A model generated the notes under the pieces. The model was not told the origin of the DNA. It was given only the letters and a program-made list of their open reading frames with translations, and ran no database searches. From an uncultured Myxococcales bacterium (GTDB lineage Bacteria > Myxococcota_A > Polyangia > Polyangiales > Polyangiaceae): a stretch of 58,077 bases of DNA. Location of the stretch: assembly GCA_937902985.1 (NCBI GenBank), contig CALFNG010000477.1:1-58077 (forward strand). Direction: 5' to 3'. The position numbers and the translations under genes are program-made. Positions 14,174 to 21,998 of the stretch are shown in pieces (positions within the stretch are counted from its first letter, which is position 1; every line of letters begins with the position of its first letter).

Positions 14174-14422
14174 TCAGGGAGGCCGCGGCCTCGCCGATTC
14201 CCGCTCGGCCCGCGCGCGCACGTACCGCGAACGAAGGTCGGCGCCGACCGCGTAGAGGAAGGCCCCGAGCGATGCCGTCCCGAGGCCTTGACCGATCGAC
14301 ATCGCGGCGACCACGGGCACGGGCCGCGGGTCGAGCAGCGACCAGACCATCAGCCCGACGGCGGCGAGGGTGAGGACGCACGAAACGAGGACCAGGCGCG
14401 AAGTCGGAGGCGGCGGCTTCAC
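14174..14422 (-). CDS. Small two-helix membrane protein of the NapC operon
   Basis: A protein of 82 residues starting at a GTG that overlaps the NapC-like stop by four bases (GTGA), so it is translationally coupled. Two membrane helices are visible (LVLVSCVLTLAAVGLMVWSLL and VVAAMSIGQGLGTASLGAFLY), followed by a basic tail RSRYVRARAERE. The position suggests an accessory subunit of the quinol-oxidising cytochrome. The sequence is not recognised. It was found by the overlap rule, inside a longer spurious frame. Confidence 0.7.
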   Translation of the reverse strand: MKPPPPTSRLVLVSCVLTLAAVGLMVWSLLDPRPVPVVAAMSIGQGLGTASLGAFLYAVGADLRSRYVRARAERESARPRPP

Positions 14423-15144
14423 GGTGCACTTCCAGCGTCCGTCTTCGACGAGTCCGTCGGGGCCGGGTGGACTGCCGGCTCGGCGGGGGCCTCCCCCGGG
14501 GGTCGAAAATTGGGATGGGCGTATCCGTGGCAGCCGGCGCTCGCGCAGCTCACGCGACCCTGGCGCACGTCCCCGAGCGACGCCTTGTGGTCGGGGACCT
14601 CGAGCCAGAGCTTCCCTTCGGTCGAATGGCACTGCATGCAGTTGTCGTTGGGGTACGGCTTCAATAGGTGAATGGTCGTTTTTGCTTCCTCGATCGGTAC
14701 ATTTCTGTATTCCGTGTAGTAGAGCCAAACATGCCGCATACCGCCGAGCTTGGTGACGATGGTGCCGAACATCCCGTAATCCGCGTGGCACGAGTAGCAA
14801 TTTTCATTTCCGAAGAGCTTGTTACGGGCATGGCGCGATGACAGCGAAACGCTGGTGATGCTATTCGAGTCCGACGCGTGCGGTATCATCACGTGACACG
14901 AGCCGCAGAACTGCCGCTCCTTCGTCGCCTCGAAACCCTGAATGTTTCCAGCGAACGCGACGCCGATGGGAAACACACCTAGCCCGAAGAGGAGCCAGAT
15001 TCTCGACGACGGACCGAGCGGTGGCCGGAGGATCAGATATCCAACGATGATTGCGGCTGAAAGCGCAGCGCAGGCGAGCGCGACGACCGCGAGGGGAGAA
15101 GATTGGACAGTCAACAAGCGCCCTTCGCGCGAAGCGCTCCCCAC
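14419..15144 (-). CDS. NapC/NirT-family tetrahaem cytochrome c (quinol dehydrogenase)
   Basis: About 241 residues. Two N-terminal membrane segments (SPLAVVALACAALSAAIIVGYLIL and IWLLFGLGVFPIGVAFAGNI) precede a periplasmic domain with haem motifs CGSCH, CYSCH and CMQCH, and a last one spelled CASAGCH (CX4CH). NapC/NrfH proteins take electrons from quinol and pass them to periplasmic cytochromes. A soluble C-terminal extension is rich in Pro/Ala. The start is uncertain: GTG 15144 has GGAGG 13 bases upstream, while TTG codons at 15117 and 15114 follow GAAGGG more closely. It is divergent from the porin gene, so the two operons share a short promoter region. Confidence 0.88.
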   Translation of the reverse strand: MGSASREGRLLTVQSSPLAVVALACAALSAAIIVGYLILRPPLGPSSRIWLLFGLGVFPIGVAFAGNIQGFEATKERQFCGSCHVMIPHASDSNSITSVSLSSRHARNKLFGNENCYSCHADYGMFGTIVTKLGGMRHVWLYYTEYRNVPIEEAKTTIHLLKPYPNDNCMQCHSTEGKLWLEVPDHKASLGDVRQGRVSCASAGCHGYAHPNFRPPGEAPAEPAVHPAPTDSSKTDAGSAP

Positions 15145-15198
15145 ATGCGAGGAGGATCCTCCCAAGCCGGGGCAAATGGCAAGGTAGCCTTTTGCCGC

Positions 15199-16410
15199 GT
15201 GCGCCAGGCGCGTGCGGCGGCCTGGACGGTATTCGCGCTCACGGCCTCGTTCTGCGCCTTGTTCTGCGCCTCCTTCTGCCAGGTGGCCTCGGCGCAATCG
15301 ATTCGCCTCCGCGCCGACGCGCTCGCGCAGACGAGCTCCGACACCCAGACGCCCGCCGGGCTCCTCGTCTTGCAGGGGCAAGATCAGGTGCGGCCGTGGG
15401 TCGACGCCGAGGCGCTCGTCTGGACGGGGGCCAAACCGGACGCGACGGCAGACGTCCTCGTGCTCGCGGTCCGCGTGAAGGAACCTCACGGCTACGGGCA
15501 GCTGCGTGCCGGCCGCTTCGTGCTGGCGACCGGCGCCGTCCTCCCGGTGCAGCTCGACGGGATCGACGCCCTCGGCCGCACGCCCTGGGGCATGACGACG
15601 GAGGCCTTCGGAGGCGTGCCCGTCGTTCCGCGGTTCGGGGCGCGCGCCTACGACTGGCTCGTGGGAGGGCGCGTCGCCCAGAGGGTCGCCGACGCCGCGA
15701 CCGTCGGCCTCTCGTACGTGCAGCGGCGCGAGTACGGCGACGTCTCGAACGAGGAGCTCGGGGCCGACTTAGCGGCGGCCCCCGCGCGCTGGTGCGATCT
15801 GGCCGCGCGCGCCGCGTATGATCTGGTCTCGCCCGGCCTCGCCGACGCGCTGTTCTCGGCGGCCGTGCGCTCGCCCGAGTGGCGCTTCGAGGTGTTCGGG
15901 TCGCAGCGCTCGCCTTCGAGGCTGCTGCCGGCGACCTCGCTCTTCTCGGTGCTCGGAGACTTCCCGTCGCAGTCCCTCGGCGGCACGCTGCGCTGGCGGG
16001 CCGCCCCGCGCCTCGATCTGCTCGCGAGCGGCGCGGCCCAGTCCGTGGGCTCGGAGGTCGGCGGCAACGGGTGGGTGCGCTCGTCGCTGCGCCTCGACGA
16101 CCGCGGTGATGGCGCGCTCGGGCTCGAGCTGCGCCGGCAAGACGTGTCGACCGCACAGTGGAGCGGCGTGCGCGCGACCACGGCGGTCCCGCTCGGTCGC
16201 GGCTTTCGGTACGCGTCCGAAATCGAGATCGTCGTCCCCGATCACCCCGACGGCCGGGGGATCGCGTGGCCCTGGGGCCTCGTCTCCCTCGCCTGGCGGT
16301 CCGCCGCCGGGTGGGAGCTCGCCGGCGCCCTCGAGGCCTCGTCGACGCCCGAGCACCGCTACGAGACCGACGCGATCGTGCGCCTGTCGCGAGCCCTGAG
16401 CATGAAATGA
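15199..16410 (+). CDS. Outer-membrane beta-barrel of the cytochrome cluster (porin-like)
   Basis: About 403 residues. A classical signal peptide (RAAAWTVFALTASFCALFCASFCQVASAQ) is followed by strands with alternating residues, for example GQLRAGRFVLATGAVLPVQLDG, WRFEVFGSQRS and GALGLELRRQDVSTAQWSG, and ends in a strand IVRLSRALSMK. In porin-cytochrome conduits (MtrB, OmbB) such a barrel surrounds a multihaem cytochrome. This one is smaller than MtrB (about 670 residues), so the comparison rests mainly on context. The GTG at 15199 gives the best signal peptide; ATG at 15145 or 15103 would extend it. Its stop overlaps the next gene as ATGA. Confidence 0.7.
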   Translation: MRQARAAAWTVFALTASFCALFCASFCQVASAQSIRLRADALAQTSSDTQTPAGLLVLQGQDQVRPWVDAEALVWTGAKPDATADVLVLAVRVKEPHGYGQLRAGRFVLATGAVLPVQLDGIDALGRTPWGMTTEAFGGVPVVPRFGARAYDWLVGGRVAQRVADAATVGLSYVQRREYGDVSNEELGADLAAAPARWCDLAARAAYDLVSPGLADALFSAAVRSPEWRFEVFGSQRSPSRLLPATSLFSVLGDFPSQSLGGTLRWRAAPRLDLLASGAAQSVGSEVGGNGWVRSSLRLDDRGDGALGLELRRQDVSTAQWSGVRATTAVPLGRGFRYASEIEIVVPDHPDGRGIAWPWGLVSLAWRSAAGWELAGALEASSTPEHRYETDAIVRLSRALSMK

Positions 16411-17468
16411 GGGCGCACTTCTCGGTGCTCGCCGTCCTCGCGCTCGCGTTCGCGCTCGGGGCGTGCGCGGGCGTGCTCGGGTTGCGACGCGAGCCGGCGA
16501 CGCACCGCTTCGAGCACCGCGCGCACGTGCTGAAGGGGATCAACTGCGTCGAGTGCCATGTCGGGGTCGTCGGCGCCGACACCACCGGCGCCGCGCACTT
16601 CCCGCCCGACGCGACGTGCCGGCGCTGCCACGCGAAGCCGCACGACGAGCGCGCCTGCAACGGCTGTCATGGGGAGCTCTACGTGCGCGAGGGCGTCGAG
16701 CTCGCCCGGGAGCACCTGCGGTTCGAACATCGGAAGCACATGGCGGCGACCCATGGCGACTGCGTCCGCTGCCACATCGAAGTGACCGAGGACCGCCCCG
16801 AGGCGATCCTCCCCAAGATGGCCGGCTGCTTCGGCTGCCACGAGCACCGCGATCAGTGGGCTCTGCGCGACTGCGCCGCCTGCCACGTCGATCTGGGCGA
16901 CGAGGGAACACCCCCGGCGGACCACCTCGTGCACGAGGGAGACTTCGTACGCGAGCACGGCGTCCGCGCCGCGAGCGCTCGGGACCTCTGCGCGAGTTGC
17001 CACACCGAGCGCGAGTGCGCGGGCTGCCACGGCGTCGGCACCGTGCCCGTGCTCCCGGCGCAGCTCGCGTTCGACGACGTGCGCCTCTCGGGGCTCCATC
17101 GAGCCGGCTTCCGCGCCAGGCACGCGGAGGAAGCGCGCGCCGACCCGGGCCTCTGCACGACGTGCCACAGCGAGAGCTCGTGCAACGATTGCCACACGGC
17201 AGAGCGCGTGTCGCCCGCGTCCGGCGCGCGCAGCCCGCATCCGCCGGGGTGGATCACGACCGGGCTCGGGGGCGGCGAGCATGGTCTGCAAGCGCGCATC
17301 GATCCGGCGTCGTGCGCCGCGTGCCACGGCGGCGCGGGCGAGCAGCTGTGCGTCGGCTGTCACCGCGTCGGAGGGCCCGGGGGCAACCCGCACCCCGCCG
17401 GCTTCTCGAGCACCAAGGCCAAGACGCACGATCTGCCGTGTCGGCTCTGCCACGGAGTCGGCCCGTGA
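16407..17468 (+). CDS. Thirteen-haem c-type cytochrome lipoprotein
   Basis: A protein of 353 residues with lipoprotein signal FSVLAVLALAFALGAC. I count 13 CXXCH haem motifs (CVECH, CRRCH, CNGCH, CVRCH, CFGCH, CAACH, CASCH, CAGCH, CTTCH, CNDCH, CAACH, CVGCH, CRLCH), many with the distal-His lead-in typical of cytochrome c3/MtrA-type folds (HRFEHRAHVL, RFEHRKHM). It probably carries electrons across the periplasm or through the adjacent barrel. It is translationally coupled on both sides: ATGA with the barrel and GTGA with the next cytochrome. Confidence 0.92.
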   Translation: MRAHFSVLAVLALAFALGACAGVLGLRREPATHRFEHRAHVLKGINCVECHVGVVGADTTGAAHFPPDATCRRCHAKPHDERACNGCHGELYVREGVELAREHLRFEHRKHMAATHGDCVRCHIEVTEDRPEAILPKMAGCFGCHEHRDQWALRDCAACHVDLGDEGTPPADHLVHEGDFVREHGVRAASARDLCASCHTERECAGCHGVGTVPVLPAQLAFDDVRLSGLHRAGFRARHAEEARADPGLCTTCHSESSCNDCHTAERVSPASGARSPHPPGWITTGLGGGEHGLQARIDPASCAACHGGAGEQLCVGCHRVGGPGGNPHPAGFSSTKAKTHDLPCRLCHGVGP

Positions 17469-19021
17469 AGCGGCCCCGCACGCTGGCCGCCGCCCTGGTG
17501 ATCGCCCTGTTGCTGATCGCGGCGGGCATCGCCACGACGGTCGTCGTCTCGCGCGGGAGGACGAAGGGTGTGCCGCCCGAACTCGTGCCCCCTTCGTGGG
17601 CCGAATACCGGACGAGCCCGGGCCACGCGTTCCACGTCGGAGGCGGGAAGGCCGAGTGCAAGGACTGTCACGACTTCCAGCGCGAAGGCTTCAAGAACCC
17701 GGGCGTCGCCCCTTGCCTGCGGTGCCACGAGACGCAGGCCAAGCGCGCGCACACCGGGAACGCCGAGAAGCCCACGACCTGCCTGACGTGCCACGCCTTC
17801 GCGCCGGACATCGCGCCTCCGAAATGCGTGTCGTGCCACGCCCAGCCCGAGGGTCACTTCGCCGCCATCGGGGTCCACGCGACGACCGAATGCACGCAGT
17901 GCCACCGCATGCACGAGGAGCCGTCGGTCGTCGTGAAGGATTGCACGACGTGCCACAAGCAGCGGGCGCTCCGGCACGCCGAGCACGTCGACTCGAAGGG
18001 GTGCAGCGACTGCCACCTGCCGCACACGCCCGCGCTCGCGGCCTTGACGATGTGCTCCACCTGCCACACGCAGCCGGCGGGTCCGCGGCCCGCCGACCAC
18101 GACTCGTGCATCGGGTGCCACAAGCCGCACGACTTCTTCGCGAACGGCGCCGCAGCCTGCATCGGCTGCCATGGTCTCAAGCCGACGCTCATGGCCGACG
18201 TCGTCCCCAAGCACGCGGTCTGTACGAGCTGCCACACGCCGCACGCTCCGATGCTGGCCGCGCAGTCATGCGTCGGCTGCCACGCCACGGTCCAGCCGCT
18301 TCACGACGGCAAGACGGCGTGCGTCGGGTGCCATGAGCCGCACGCTGGCGACGTGAACACGAAGGTCGACCGGTGCACGAGCTGCCACGCGAAGGTCGCC
18401 CTCGCGGACACGGCGGCTCACGCGGGCGGGATCGCCTGCGTCGGCTGCCACAAGCCCCACGACTTCGCGCCGCCCGCCGACCGGCGGGCGCTCTGTGCGA
18501 CGTGCCACGCGCGCGAGGCGACCCTGTCGAGCACGAACAAGGGCCACCTCGATTGCGCCTCCTGTCACGGGGCCTCGGCGCACACCCCGACCAAGGTTCC
18601 CATCTGCGGAACCTGTCACGCCGCCGAGCTGGCGAGCGCGCCCCCCGGACACCAGGCGTGCCTCGGGTGCCACGATCCGCACGGCGGCGCGCGCCCTCCG
18701 GCAAACGCCTGCCGGACCTGCCACGAGGACAAGTTCGGCGGCAATCACGCGCCCGTGGCGGGCGGGTGCCAGACTTGCCATCGCCCGCACGGCCCTTCGG
18801 GGCCCGCCGCGCCGCCGGCGTGCTTGACGTGCCACGTGCGCGAGAAGCTCCCGGCCCTCCACGCGATGTCCGGGCACGTGACGTGCCTCGAGTGCCACAC
18901 GTCACACGGTCCCCCGCGCGCCGACCGCGCGACATGCACGGCGGGGAGCTGCCACACGGACCGGCGCGAGCACCAGCCGCAGGCGCTGGTCTGCGACGGC
19001 TGCCACGTCTTCCAGAAGTAG
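17465..19021 (+). CDS. 25-haem c-type cytochrome with N-terminal membrane anchor
   Basis: A protein of 518 residues starting at GTG. Residues 5-30 form one hydrophobic helix (LAAALVIALLLIAAGIATTVVV) without a clear cleavage site, so it may stay anchored in the inner membrane. The rest holds 24 CXXCH motifs plus one CTAGSCH (CX4CH), about one haem per 20 residues, many as CXGCHKPH or CXXCHTPH as in doubled-CXXCH domains. The density and even spacing imply an extended haem wire spanning the periplasm. It is the last gene of the barrel operon and ends 17 bases from the convergent cytochrome gene. Confidence 0.92.
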   Translation: MKRPRTLAAALVIALLLIAAGIATTVVVSRGRTKGVPPELVPPSWAEYRTSPGHAFHVGGGKAECKDCHDFQREGFKNPGVAPCLRCHETQAKRAHTGNAEKPTTCLTCHAFAPDIAPPKCVSCHAQPEGHFAAIGVHATTECTQCHRMHEEPSVVVKDCTTCHKQRALRHAEHVDSKGCSDCHLPHTPALAALTMCSTCHTQPAGPRPADHDSCIGCHKPHDFFANGAAACIGCHGLKPTLMADVVPKHAVCTSCHTPHAPMLAAQSCVGCHATVQPLHDGKTACVGCHEPHAGDVNTKVDRCTSCHAKVALADTAAHAGGIACVGCHKPHDFAPPADRRALCATCHAREATLSSTNKGHLDCASCHGASAHTPTKVPICGTCHAAELASAPPGHQACLGCHDPHGGARPPANACRTCHEDKFGGNHAPVAGGCQTCHRPHGPSGPAAPPACLTCHVREKLPALHAMSGHVTCLECHTSHGPPRADRATCTAGSCHTDRREHQPQALVCDGCHVFQK

Positions 19022-19038
19022 GGGCCCCGAGGCCGAGG

Positions 19039-20622
19039 CTACTGGCCGAGTTCGACCAGGCCGTCCACGTGGAGCGCCTTGCCGCTGGCCGCGATGAGGG
19101 GCACGCCCGCCGGATCGAGCATGACCTCGCTCCCGTGACACGAGGGCCGGTTGCACCCCGTCGACGACGTGTGCTCGCTCGGAGGAATGCCGTGGCACGT
19201 CCCGCAGGCGGCGGCCTTCCCCGACGCGTCGTTCCACGCGGGGGTCGCCGCCGGGTCGGGCAAGTTCGCGCCGTGGCAGGCGACGGCGCTGCACGTCGTC
19301 CCGTTCCACGAGGGCGAGGCGCCGCGGGCGAGCGCCAGACCGGAGAACGCGACATGGACGACCCCGTCGAGGTGGACGGGGTCGATCACGGTCGACGGGA
19401 CGACGTGGCACGTGGCGCACGCGATGGCCGCCGCGATGGAGGGGTTCTCGTGCGCCGGGTGCGCGCCCGCGGCCGGCCAGGGATCGTCGTCGGTCCGCCC
19501 GTGGCACGCGCCGCACTTGCCGCTGCCGTCGCCGAGGTCGACGACTCCGTTGAGGTGCAGCGGACCGCCCCGCAGCGCGGTTCCGGTCGCGTCGGGCTCG
19601 GCGTGGCAGTTCGTGCAGGGTCCGGGGAAGTGATTCGCGGGCGGGGAGCGATGGCAATCGTTGCAGCCCATCGGCGTCGTCTCGCCCCATTTCGGGCGCG
19701 TGCGCGCGCCGCCCTGATCGTGGCAGGAGACCGCGCAGGCGCCGGTCGTCGCGTCGTACGCCCCCCCGGACGCGACGACGGCGGGGTCGAAGACGACGTC
19801 GACGACCCCGTTTCCGTGGCGCCCGCTGACGACGTCGGCGGCGTCGGGGACGGGATGGCACGTCGTGCAGGCGAGACCGGACGCGCGCGCCGCCGAGGGC
19901 TGCACGTGCGCGGCGTGTGCGCCCGCGAGCGGCGCGTCGCCCGGAAAGAAGCACGGATCGCGCGGCGGGTACGCGCGCGCTCCCGCTCCGTGGCAGGTGC
20001 CGCACGCGAGCACGCCGCCGGGCTGGTCGTGGCAGCTGGTGCAGGCTGGAGCCGCCGGCGCCGGGAGGGACACGCCCGAGGGGCGCGCGGGCGTGCCCTC
20101 GTGGCAGCGACCGCATGCGGTGGGGTCGTGGGCGTTCAGCATCGGGGCCCAGCGGGCGGCCCGCAAGACGGTGGCGTGGAAGGCGCTCGATCGCGGATCG
20201 ATGATGCCGGGGGCGTGGACGGTGCCGGCGAACGCCGGCGCGCCGGCGGCCACCCACGCCGCGACGACGCCGTGCTCGGCGGCGGTGAGCAGGCCGACGT
20301 GCGGTGGCACGTCGAGGGCGGCGAGGATCGGCGCCCGCCCGTCGGCGGGCAGCGTCGCCGCCGCGCCCGAGGGCGACACGCAGGCGATGACGCCGAGGAA
20401 CGTGGTCGCGCTCCACCCGCCAGATGGCGAATCGCCCTGGTGGCAGGCGGCGCACCGCTGCAGGATTGGCGCGACGTCCGCCACGTAGGCGGGGGGCTGC
20501 GGGGCGGTCGGGCGGTCCTCCGAGCAGGAAGTGAAGAGCGACGCGGCCGCGAGCGCGCACGCCGCCTTGCACCTCCACCCTGAGGACGCGGGCGGCGGCC
20601 TGAGCGCGCCCCCCCCGCGCAT
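19039..20622 (-). CDS. Multihaem cytochrome lipoprotein (CxxxxCH/CXXCH type), 13 haem motifs
   Basis: A protein of 527 residues with signal CALAAASLFTSC (lipobox Cys near 34). It has ten CXXCH motifs, one CAVSCH (CX3CH) and two CX4CH (CSAVACH, CNRPSCH). The alternation of CX4CH and CXXCH with intervening LHLDGxVxV-like strands (PLHLNGVVDLG, PVHLDGVVHVAF, ALHVDGLVELG) matches the CxxxxCH/CxxCH domain of extracellular Geobacter cytochromes. Residues about 45-130 resemble a planctomycete-type cytochrome C domain (VADVAPILQRCAACHQGDSP). The start is fixed by a one-base TGATG overlap with the hexahaem gene. It is probably surface-exposed. Confidence 0.88.
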   Translation of the reverse strand: MRGGGALRPPPASSGWRCKAACALAAASLFTSCSEDRPTAPQPPAYVADVAPILQRCAACHQGDSPSGGWSATTFLGVIACVSPSGAAATLPADGRAPILAALDVPPHVGLLTAAEHGVVAAWVAAGAPAFAGTVHAPGIIDPRSSAFHATVLRAARWAPMLNAHDPTACGRCHEGTPARPSGVSLPAPAAPACTSCHDQPGGVLACGTCHGAGARAYPPRDPCFFPGDAPLAGAHAAHVQPSAARASGLACTTCHPVPDAADVVSGRHGNGVVDVVFDPAVVASGGAYDATTGACAVSCHDQGGARTRPKWGETTPMGCNDCHRSPPANHFPGPCTNCHAEPDATGTALRGGPLHLNGVVDLGDGSGKCGACHGRTDDDPWPAAGAHPAHENPSIAAAIACATCHVVPSTVIDPVHLDGVVHVAFSGLALARGASPSWNGTTCSAVACHGANLPDPAATPAWNDASGKAAACGTCHGIPPSEHTSSTGCNRPSCHGSEVMLDPAGVPLIAASGKALHVDGLVELGQ

Positions 20623-21998
20623 CACTGCGGTCGAAGGGCGATCGCGACGGGAGACGCGCCCATCGCGACGATCGAGTCGTAGACGATCTGCTGCGTGTAC
20701 TTGGTGTTGTGGACGCCCATGGCGCCGCCTCGGGCGATGAGGAAGTAGTTGTAGAGCGCGCCCGCCTGGTCGGCGGCGAGCACCGTTGCGCCGCCGTCGG
20801 CCGCGCCGTTCGGGCGAGCCTTGTCGAGGGTCATATCCGCCGCCGGATCCGCGATGACGGACGCCGGGAGCGCGAGGTACGGCGCCGTCGCCGTCTGGGT
20901 GAGGGCCCCGGCGTTGTTGAGCACCGTTCGCAGCTCGGTCAACGAGGCGCGCACGAGCGACTGGCCGCCGTTCACGTCGAAGTTCACCGCCGTCGCGTGG
21001 CAGCCGATGCACGCGCTGAGCCGCGGGGCGAACGAGTGATCCGGGACCTTCGAGTTATTGGCGACGGGAGGCATGTGACAGTCGATGCACTGGAGCTTCG
21101 CCTGGTGGGCCGACTGCCCGTAGGTCTTGCCGGCGTACGAGTAGCCGCCCATCCCCGAGAACACGTCCGCTTGCGGCCCCTCGTGAGGCCCCCAGTTCAG
21201 GCTGGTGATCTTGTTGCTCGCCGTGACGTACGTCGTCACGTCCTTGCGCGACTTGTGGCAGAAGACGCACGCATTGCCGGGCCCCTGAGAGCCCGTCGTG
21301 TTGAGGAGGCCCGGGACGACGGTCCCCGTCGTGGTGCTGCCCGGCTGGGTCTTCTCGATGTACGAGACATCGGTTGCGCCCGACGGCACGACGAACGGGA
21401 ACGACCCGTCCGTCCACGGGATGCCCGTCTTGTGCGGGTCGTTCGCGTTCGTCACCGCGTGGCACGTGGTGCAGTCGACCTTCGCGACGAGAGCGCCGCC
21501 CGCGTAGGTCGACTCGGTGGAGACCCCGGCGTCCGGCGGATTGCGGTAGAGGATCTGGCCGTTGCCGAGGTGCTCCACCACGCCGCCGTCGGTCGTCCCG
21601 ACCTTGCCGGCCACGCGAAGCGCCACGCCGTCGATCGCGTGGCAGTTGCCGCAGACCGAGCCGGGGGTGGTCCAAGCCGTCGCCTCGTCGCCGCCGACGT
21701 TCGTGATGAACGTCGAGTAGTGCACGCTGCTCTGGTACTGCGTGATGACCCCGTTGAAGCCGTGACAAGGCGAGAGGCACCCGACCGGGAGAACGACGCC
21801 GGCGTCGCCGCCCGCGACGCCCGTCCCCGGCGGACCTTGCGGGCCTGTGATCCCCGGCAGACCCATCGCCCCGGTGACCGCGCCTGCCTCAGCGGATTCG
21901 CCGGCGGGACCTGCGGGTCCGGTCGGACCGGTGCAACTCAACGTGCCGATCGCGAGAACGACGGCAACGAGGACGCCTGCGAGTACCTTCTGGAACAT
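20622..21998 (-). CDS. Hexahaem cytochrome lipoprotein with collagen-like N-terminus
   Basis: A protein of 458 residues. The lipoprotein signal VAVVLAIGTLSC is followed at once by about ten Gly-X-Y collagen-like triplets (GPTGPAGPAGES, then GLPGITGPQGPPGTG). Beyond lie five CXXCH motifs (CGNCH, CTTCH, CVFCH, CIDCH, CIGCH) and one CLSPCH (CX3CH). Several segments recall the NrfA/octahaem cytochrome style (CHKSRKDVTTY, CIDCHMPPVANNS). A ribosome site GGGAGAAG precedes the ATG. It leads the two-gene minus-strand operon. The collagen-like part may trimerise the protein or act as a stalk at the cell surface. Confidence 0.88.
   Translation of the reverse strand: MFQKVLAGVLVAVVLAIGTLSCTGPTGPAGPAGESAEAGAVTGAMGLPGITGPQGPPGTGVAGGDAGVVLPVGCLSPCHGFNGVITQYQSSVHYSTFITNVGGDEATAWTTPGSVCGNCHAIDGVALRVAGKVGTTDGGVVEHLGNGQILYRNPPDAGVSTESTYAGGALVAKVDCTTCHAVTNANDPHKTGIPWTDGSFPFVVPSGATDVSYIEKTQPGSTTTGTVVPGLLNTTGSQGPGNACVFCHKSRKDVTTYVTASNKITSLNWGPHEGPQADVFSGMGGYSYAGKTYGQSAHQAKLQCIDCHMPPVANNSKVPDHSFAPRLSACIGCHATAVNFDVNGGQSLVRASLTELRTVLNNAGALTQTATAPYLALPASVIADPAADMTLDKARPNGAADGGATVLAADQAGALYNYFLIARGGAMGVHNTKYTQQIVYDSIVAMGASPVAIALRPQ

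Follow-up and report, generated by a model that had tools for sequence, protein, structure and literature searches.

Between positions 14174 and 21998 of the window, as we call the whole 58,077-nucleotide stretch of DNA analysed here (contig CALFNG010000477.1 of an uncultured Myxococcales bacterium), lie seven genes that are lettered G and A on the minus strand, B, C and D on the plus strand, and E and F again on the minus strand. Together they hold 61 haem sites, and they probably make up a complete porin-cytochrome system for extracellular electron transfer that leads from the quinol pool to the cell surface. Within the collections searched, this conduit was found only in Myxococcota-type genomes. 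In the proposed chain, the NrfH/NapC-type protein A together with its small partner G would oxidize menaquinol at the inner membrane, and the 25-haem protein D would relay the electrons across the periplasm. The 13-haem protein C, docked in the 22-strand barrel B, would provide passage through the outer membrane, and delivery to an outside acceptor would fall to E, probably to F on its collagen-like stalk, and to an OmcA/MtrC-type protein that is encoded on another contig of the same genome, C153. This acceptor could be Fe(III) or Mn(IV) minerals, humics or other cells, and the chain would most likely be used under oxygen limitation. Conduit logic of this kind had already been proposed in a first-pass annotation made from the letters of the window. 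It is now supported by the predicted 22-strand fold of B, by the invariant pairing of B with C, by the lipobox and distal histidines of C, by the linked NrfH-like A and by the OmcA/MtrC neighbours of the cluster in relatives.

A barrel paired with a 13-haem lipoprotein

Gene B (15145..16410, plus strand) encodes a protein with a signal peptide and not a single CxxCH motif. A TTG codon at 15103 lies upstream of the ATG at 15145, but the ATG is the likelier start, because the TTG start would overlap the divergent NapC-type gene. The first-pass annotation had called B an outer-membrane barrel, and structure prediction indeed returns one: the AlphaFold2 model, computed from 21 sequences, has 22 strands between residues 53 and 420, with a mean pLDDT (predicted local distance difference test) of 83 and half of the residues above 90. 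Leading Foldseek matches of this model are FimD/PapC ushers, AlgE and OprD-type porins, and VIA matches it to TonB-receptor barrels with Z about 20 over about 330 residues. No relative of B was found in Pfam, NCBIfam or the PDB sequences. According to general barrel geometry, the pore of a 22-strand barrel is about 40 Å across at the backbone, which is somewhat narrower than that of the 26-strand MtrB. A plug domain belonging to B itself would find no space in the model, and C may fit into the pore.

Gene C (16407..17468, plus strand) encodes a lipoprotein of 353 amino acids with 13 CxxCH motifs and is the candidate for the wire that spans the barrel. Its lipobox cysteine, Cys20, is invariant in 47 of 47 aligned sequences, and in the same alignment nearly all CxxCH positions and about ten further, distal histidines are invariant as well. 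Such a pattern suggests a bis-histidine electron wire rather than a catalytic haem. Homologues carry 11 to 13 CxxCH motifs throughout the relatives, and C, like D, is built from cytochrome c7/c3-like repeats. When its profile was compared with the MtrA structure 6r2q_A, only an alignment with E 8e-4 over about 100 residues was obtained. VIA matched just the N-terminal half of the predicted model of C, to ActA-like proteins (Z about 5), and the fact that MtrA is missing from the VIA list proves nothing. A plasmid search for C gave no match.

The two proteins are also linked by their conservation as a pair. When 84,980 species genomes were scanned with the C family, 97 relatives emerged, of which 80 named ones were kept. 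These are mostly metagenome-assembled genomes titled Myxococcales, Polyangiaceae, Kofleriaceae, Sandaracinaceae, Archangium, Deltaproteobacteria or similar, with a few vague or odd titles, and they include the isolate Minicystis rosea DSM 24000; apparently all of them are Myxococcota. In all of these 80, the gene directly upstream of C is a B-type barrel gene on the same strand, and the two genes overlap by exactly 4 nucleotides in 55 of the 77 measurable cases. The other genes were counted in the 42 loci that offer 7 kb or more of flanking sequence at both ends of C: an E-type gene occurs in 38 of them, D in 36, A in 33, G in 32 and F in 7. Synteny, which the first-pass annotation had suggested looking for, holds in most loci for E, D, A and G. 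Sampling across the phylum gave C-family matches in 152 of 379 genomes, and by hand count these are strong (E below 1e-60) in about 69. What stays constant in other families and classes of the phylum is a compact core of three genes, E-B-C.

The weaker C-family matches in that sample largely represent a second, distant type of barrel and 13-haem pair. One such pair is located on contig C400 of the genome to which the window belongs (locus L141, 9370-12839), and others were seen at L149, L150 and L151. Its cytochrome lacks a lipobox and scores 143.6 bits to the C profile, while the barrels are related to one another and weakly to B. This second pair is widespread in the phylum, and it also occurs in large one- or two-contig genomes that lack the first system.

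The proposed path from the quinol dehydrogenase to the surface

A and G are divergent from the B-C-D operon, and F and E are convergent to it. The genes are tightly coupled, with an ATGA overlap of B and C at 16407-16410 and GTGA overlaps of C and D at 17465-17468 and of A and G at 14419-14422, while F and E meet in a TGATG junction around 20620-20624. Re-reading of the locus bore out the genes, strands, coordinates and overlaps given in the first-pass annotation, and an independent recount arrived at the same 61 haem motifs. They are distributed over A (three CxxCH and one Cx4CH), C (13 CxxCH), D (24 CxxCH and one Cx4CH), E (ten CxxCH, one Cx3CH and two Cx4CH) and F (five CxxCH and one Cx3CH). 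Six of the 61 therefore deviate from CxxCH; these are kept at at least 90% across relatives, which supports counting them, and judged from this conservation the Cx3CH and Cx4CH sites probably bind haem. At the DNA level, the strict pattern TGY-N6-TGYCAY matches 56 times in the window, where shuffling gives an expectation of 1.4 ± 1.3, and 55 of the 56 matches fall inside 14174-21998. Together with the conservation of the ligands in relatives, this excess rules out that the motifs are an artefact of high GC content. An assembly artefact is likewise ruled out, as many assemblies made independently, among them a complete isolate genome, share this gene order.

At the entry side of the putative chain, A (14419..15108, minus strand, 229 amino acids) is a tetrahaem quinol dehydrogenase of the NapC/NirT/NrfH type. 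It scores 41.5 bits against PF03264 (NapC/NirT; gathering cut-off 24.1) and is closest to NrfH among solved structures, aligning with chain 2j7a_C at E 4e-4. The CxxCHxM motif of its first haem, shared with CymA, NrfH and NapC, is kept in at least 90% of 57 sequences, and the Cx4CH motif of the last haem is also conserved. A differs from these proteins in that last motif, in its coupling to G and in its N-terminus: a single N-terminal transmembrane helix is typical of the class, whereas A has an additional hydrophobic segment, so that two such segments precede the first haem, both here and in most relatives. G (14174..14422, minus strand) is a membrane protein of 82 amino acids with two transmembrane segments, and a homologue stands beside A in most relatives. 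It gave no Pfam match and no meaningful NCBIfam match, and it may be a new quinol dehydrogenase subunit from no known family. The conserved residues of this regular companion of the NapC-like gene are W27, P36, G44-Q45 and D62-L63.

D (17465..19021, plus strand, 518 amino acids) is the candidate periplasmic relay. It matches Cytochrome c3/c7 and doubled-CXXCH domains, and 19 of its histidine positions outside CXXCH motifs are conserved, one of them being the haem histidine of the Cx4CH site. Haem-rich homologues of D are present in relatives. The first-pass annotation had described D as an anchored cytochrome with 25 haems. The haem number stands, with the single Cx4CH site included, but the transmembrane anchoring is uncertain, because the relatives are split: the N-terminal hydrophobic segment is transmembrane-like in the window and in about 34 of 78 relatives, while about 27 of them have a lipobox. 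The Asp+2 rule gives no consistent placement of D at the inner membrane, given that the relatives mix +2 residues and transmembrane-only forms.

E and F correspond to the convergent lipoproteins of 13 and six haems that had been described in the first reading. E (19039..20622, minus strand) is a candidate outer-surface cytochrome with GSu CxxxxCH/CxxCH domains (TIGR01904, 86 bits, cut-off 27; PF09698 is also matched), and in many relatives an E-type gene is located directly upstream of the barrel. In some families, homologues in this same position (L156, L161 and L162) are as large as about 1,300 residues, with 36 haem motifs. F (20622..21998, minus strand) combines its haems with a collagen-like Gly-x-y stalk, which may serve as a spacer between the haem domain and the membrane. 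Its profile matched only collagens and, weakly, cytochrome c552 in the PDB, and F keeps many non-haem residues invariant and has an NrfA-like motif. That F is a filament cytochrome of the OmcS/OmcE type found no sequence support in this profile search, which distant relatives may escape. Collagen-like stalks appear to be recurrent in these bacteria on multihaem lipoproteins of the surface type, namely on F and on the OmcA/MtrC protein encoded at L181.

The OmcA/MtrC family (TIGR03507) is absent from the window, but it is present elsewhere in the same genome and beside the B-C pair in many relatives. The OmcA/MtrC-family protein encoded on contig C153 (locus L181, 1074-3554; TIGR03507, 334 bits) is a decahaem lipoprotein whose N-terminus contains a collagen-like Gly-x-y stretch resembling that of F. 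Of the 46 neighbours with 8 to 11 haems that flank the cluster in relatives, 29 match this family, with a best E of 5e-142. In Minicystis rosea, a run of genes on one strand begins with the OmcA/MtrC gene (440 bits, cut-off 209), which is followed by E-type, B, C, D, A and G. The barrel is present in 8 of 11 OmcA/MtrC-positive genomes as compared to 21 of 58 relatives of genus, family and order overall (p about 0.008, uncorrected for phylogeny).

Direction of electron flow and alternative explanations

Several points weigh against the outward conduit. It is a reading of sequences and of predicted single-protein models, and nothing in the sequence fixes the direction of the electrons. The model of C is of moderate confidence (pLDDT 74, predicted template modelling score 0.48); it has no match in Foldseek and no full-length structural match in VIA. 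B ends without the typical C-terminal aromatic residue, and the ambiguous anchor of D has already been described. E and F lie on the strand opposite to B-C-D in the window, so that their co-expression with the operon is not guaranteed. Finally, myxobacteria are called aerobes, apart from Anaeromyxobacter and Pajaroellobacter (PMC8436480), and for this reason a phylum-wide conduit is unexpected. Two 5-haem ActA-like genes were observed on contigs C98 and C500 (L152, L153), in the vicinity of what appear to be alternative complex III and cytochrome oxidase genes; judging from these, the organism seems to be equipped for oxygen respiration as well.

As the hardware of such a conduit is direction-neutral, it could also be operated inward. 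Electrons would then enter at the surface cytochromes, coming from extracellular Fe(II), Mn(II), reduced humics or neighbouring cells, and A would run backwards and reduce quinone, as has been suggested for Pio and Mto, whose conduits are used inward. In some relatives, such as L093 (a short contig) and L102, hardly anything besides B and C, or B, C and E, is seen near the pair, and mtr clusters without an outer cytochrome have been described for Fe(II) oxidation (PMC4245776). Most loci do keep their surface cytochromes, unlike typical Fe(II)-oxidation clusters, and both an NrfH-type A and neighbours of the OmcA/MtrC family are hallmarks of outward respiration. We thus consider the inward direction unlikely.

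Slightly less credible still is an envelope chain for respiration or detoxification of a soluble acceptor, in which F or E would be the terminal reductase at the surface and B a channel or support. The invariant non-haem residues of F, its weak cytochrome c552 similarity and the proximity of A to NrfH among solved structures would fit such a chain, but the c552 matches remain below cut-off, and F is kept in only 7 of 42 loci while B, C and E persist. Moreover, transfer across the membrane would still be needed, because DmsEFA-like systems are themselves conduits. That the roughly 60 haems serve as a periplasmic and outer-membrane capacitor, an electron store that bridges oxic-anoxic shifts with no true export, is highly improbable: the very high haem count of D and its homologues would suit it, and capacitor roles are discussed for high-haem proteins of activated-sludge bacteria (PMC11495043), but it leaves the invariant coupling of the barrel to C and the OmcA/MtrC neighbours unexplained.

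Outward extracellular electron transfer thus is the explanation that we prefer, and it is directly testable, because Minicystis rosea DSM 24000 is cultured, has a complete genome and carries the locus beside an OmcA/MtrC gene. If it is true, minerals, humics, electrodes or other cells could serve for respiration in a sizeable part of a phylum that is known for aerobic predators, with consequences for iron cycling in peat, sediment and activated sludge.

Relation to known conduits

A wider proposal, which we put forward tentatively and with less than even confidence, is that the locus represents a separately evolved class of conduits across much of the Myxococcota. This class would combine a 22-strand barrel, a 13-haem outer-membrane lipoprotein threaded through it and a dedicated periplasmic wire of about 25 haems, with the full chain from quinone to mineral at one locus and with interchangeable surface ends of GSu type, of OmcA/MtrC type or in the form of a collagen-stalked hexahaem protein. 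It could offer an anaerobic or interspecies electron outlet to predatory myxobacteria that are regarded as aerobic. No description of the seven-gene set was found in the open literature searched on Polyangia and Myxococcota. In that literature, extracellular electron transfer in the phylum is linked with Anaeromyxobacter and with unspecific accounts of secreted multihaem proteins (PMC4245776, PMC11495043). A survey of activated-sludge genomes reports such proteins in Myxococcota, and in the part considered their gene clusters are not described (PMC11495043); a large multihaem survey leaves Myxococcota unmentioned in its main text (PMC11475568).

The first-pass annotation had stated that the protein set and the protein sizes match neither MtrCAB nor OmbB-OmaB-OmcB. 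For Mtr this stands by profile tests. The working principle is that of Shewanella MtrCAB, PioAB and MtoAB, and OmcA/MtrC-family cytochromes are encoded next to the cluster in relatives and on another contig of this genome, but B has no match to MtrB_PioB (PF11854) and 22 rather than 26 strands, and the 13-haem C has no match to the MtrA/DmsE decahaem family (TIGR03508). Membership in the Mtr group (MtrAB/MtrCAB, Pio, Mto, DmsEF) is ruled out by these two profiles and the strand number; no MtrB_PioB protein was found in the same genome either. For Geobacter the statement stands by haem number only. The OmbB-OmaB-OmcB and Ext systems likewise combine a barrel, a multihaem protein at the periplasmic side and a surface lipoprotein, and the GSu CxxxxCH/CxxCH domain type of E (TIGR01904) is named after Geobacter. 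OmaB has 8 haems (PMC4245776) as against 13 in C, the gene order differs, and the 25-haem protein and the linked quinol dehydrogenase are additional here. A partial likeness also exists to ActA of alternative complex III and to cytochrome c7 repeats (GSU1996), with which the N-terminal half of C aligns. C differs from them by its 13 haems, its lipoprotein nature and its pairing with a barrel, and ActB-F partners are missing from this locus.

By size and haem count, the nearest description is the pcc pair of Anaeromyxobacter, which qualifies the earlier remark that myxobacteria are not a standard model for extracellular electron transfer. In these pairs (group IV, e.g. Adeh_3392), a porin-like gene adjoins a gene for a periplasmic cytochrome of 338-344 amino acids with 12 or 14 haems, and they are reported as two genes only, with no outer cytochrome (PMC4245776). 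The phylum is the same, and C with its 353 amino acids and 13 haems is similar to these cytochromes, as compared by description only. The relatives labelled f29 are probably not Anaeromyxobacter genomes, since their G+C content is only about 55-67% at the loci read. In contrast to the pair, however, the locus described here links the quinol dehydrogenase and the 25-haem, 13-haem and 6-haem proteins to the barrel, and the E-B-C triad extends to other classes. A 22-strand barrel with a 13-haem partner would be a further structural solution to electron passage through the outer membrane, beside MtrAB and OmbB-OmaB.

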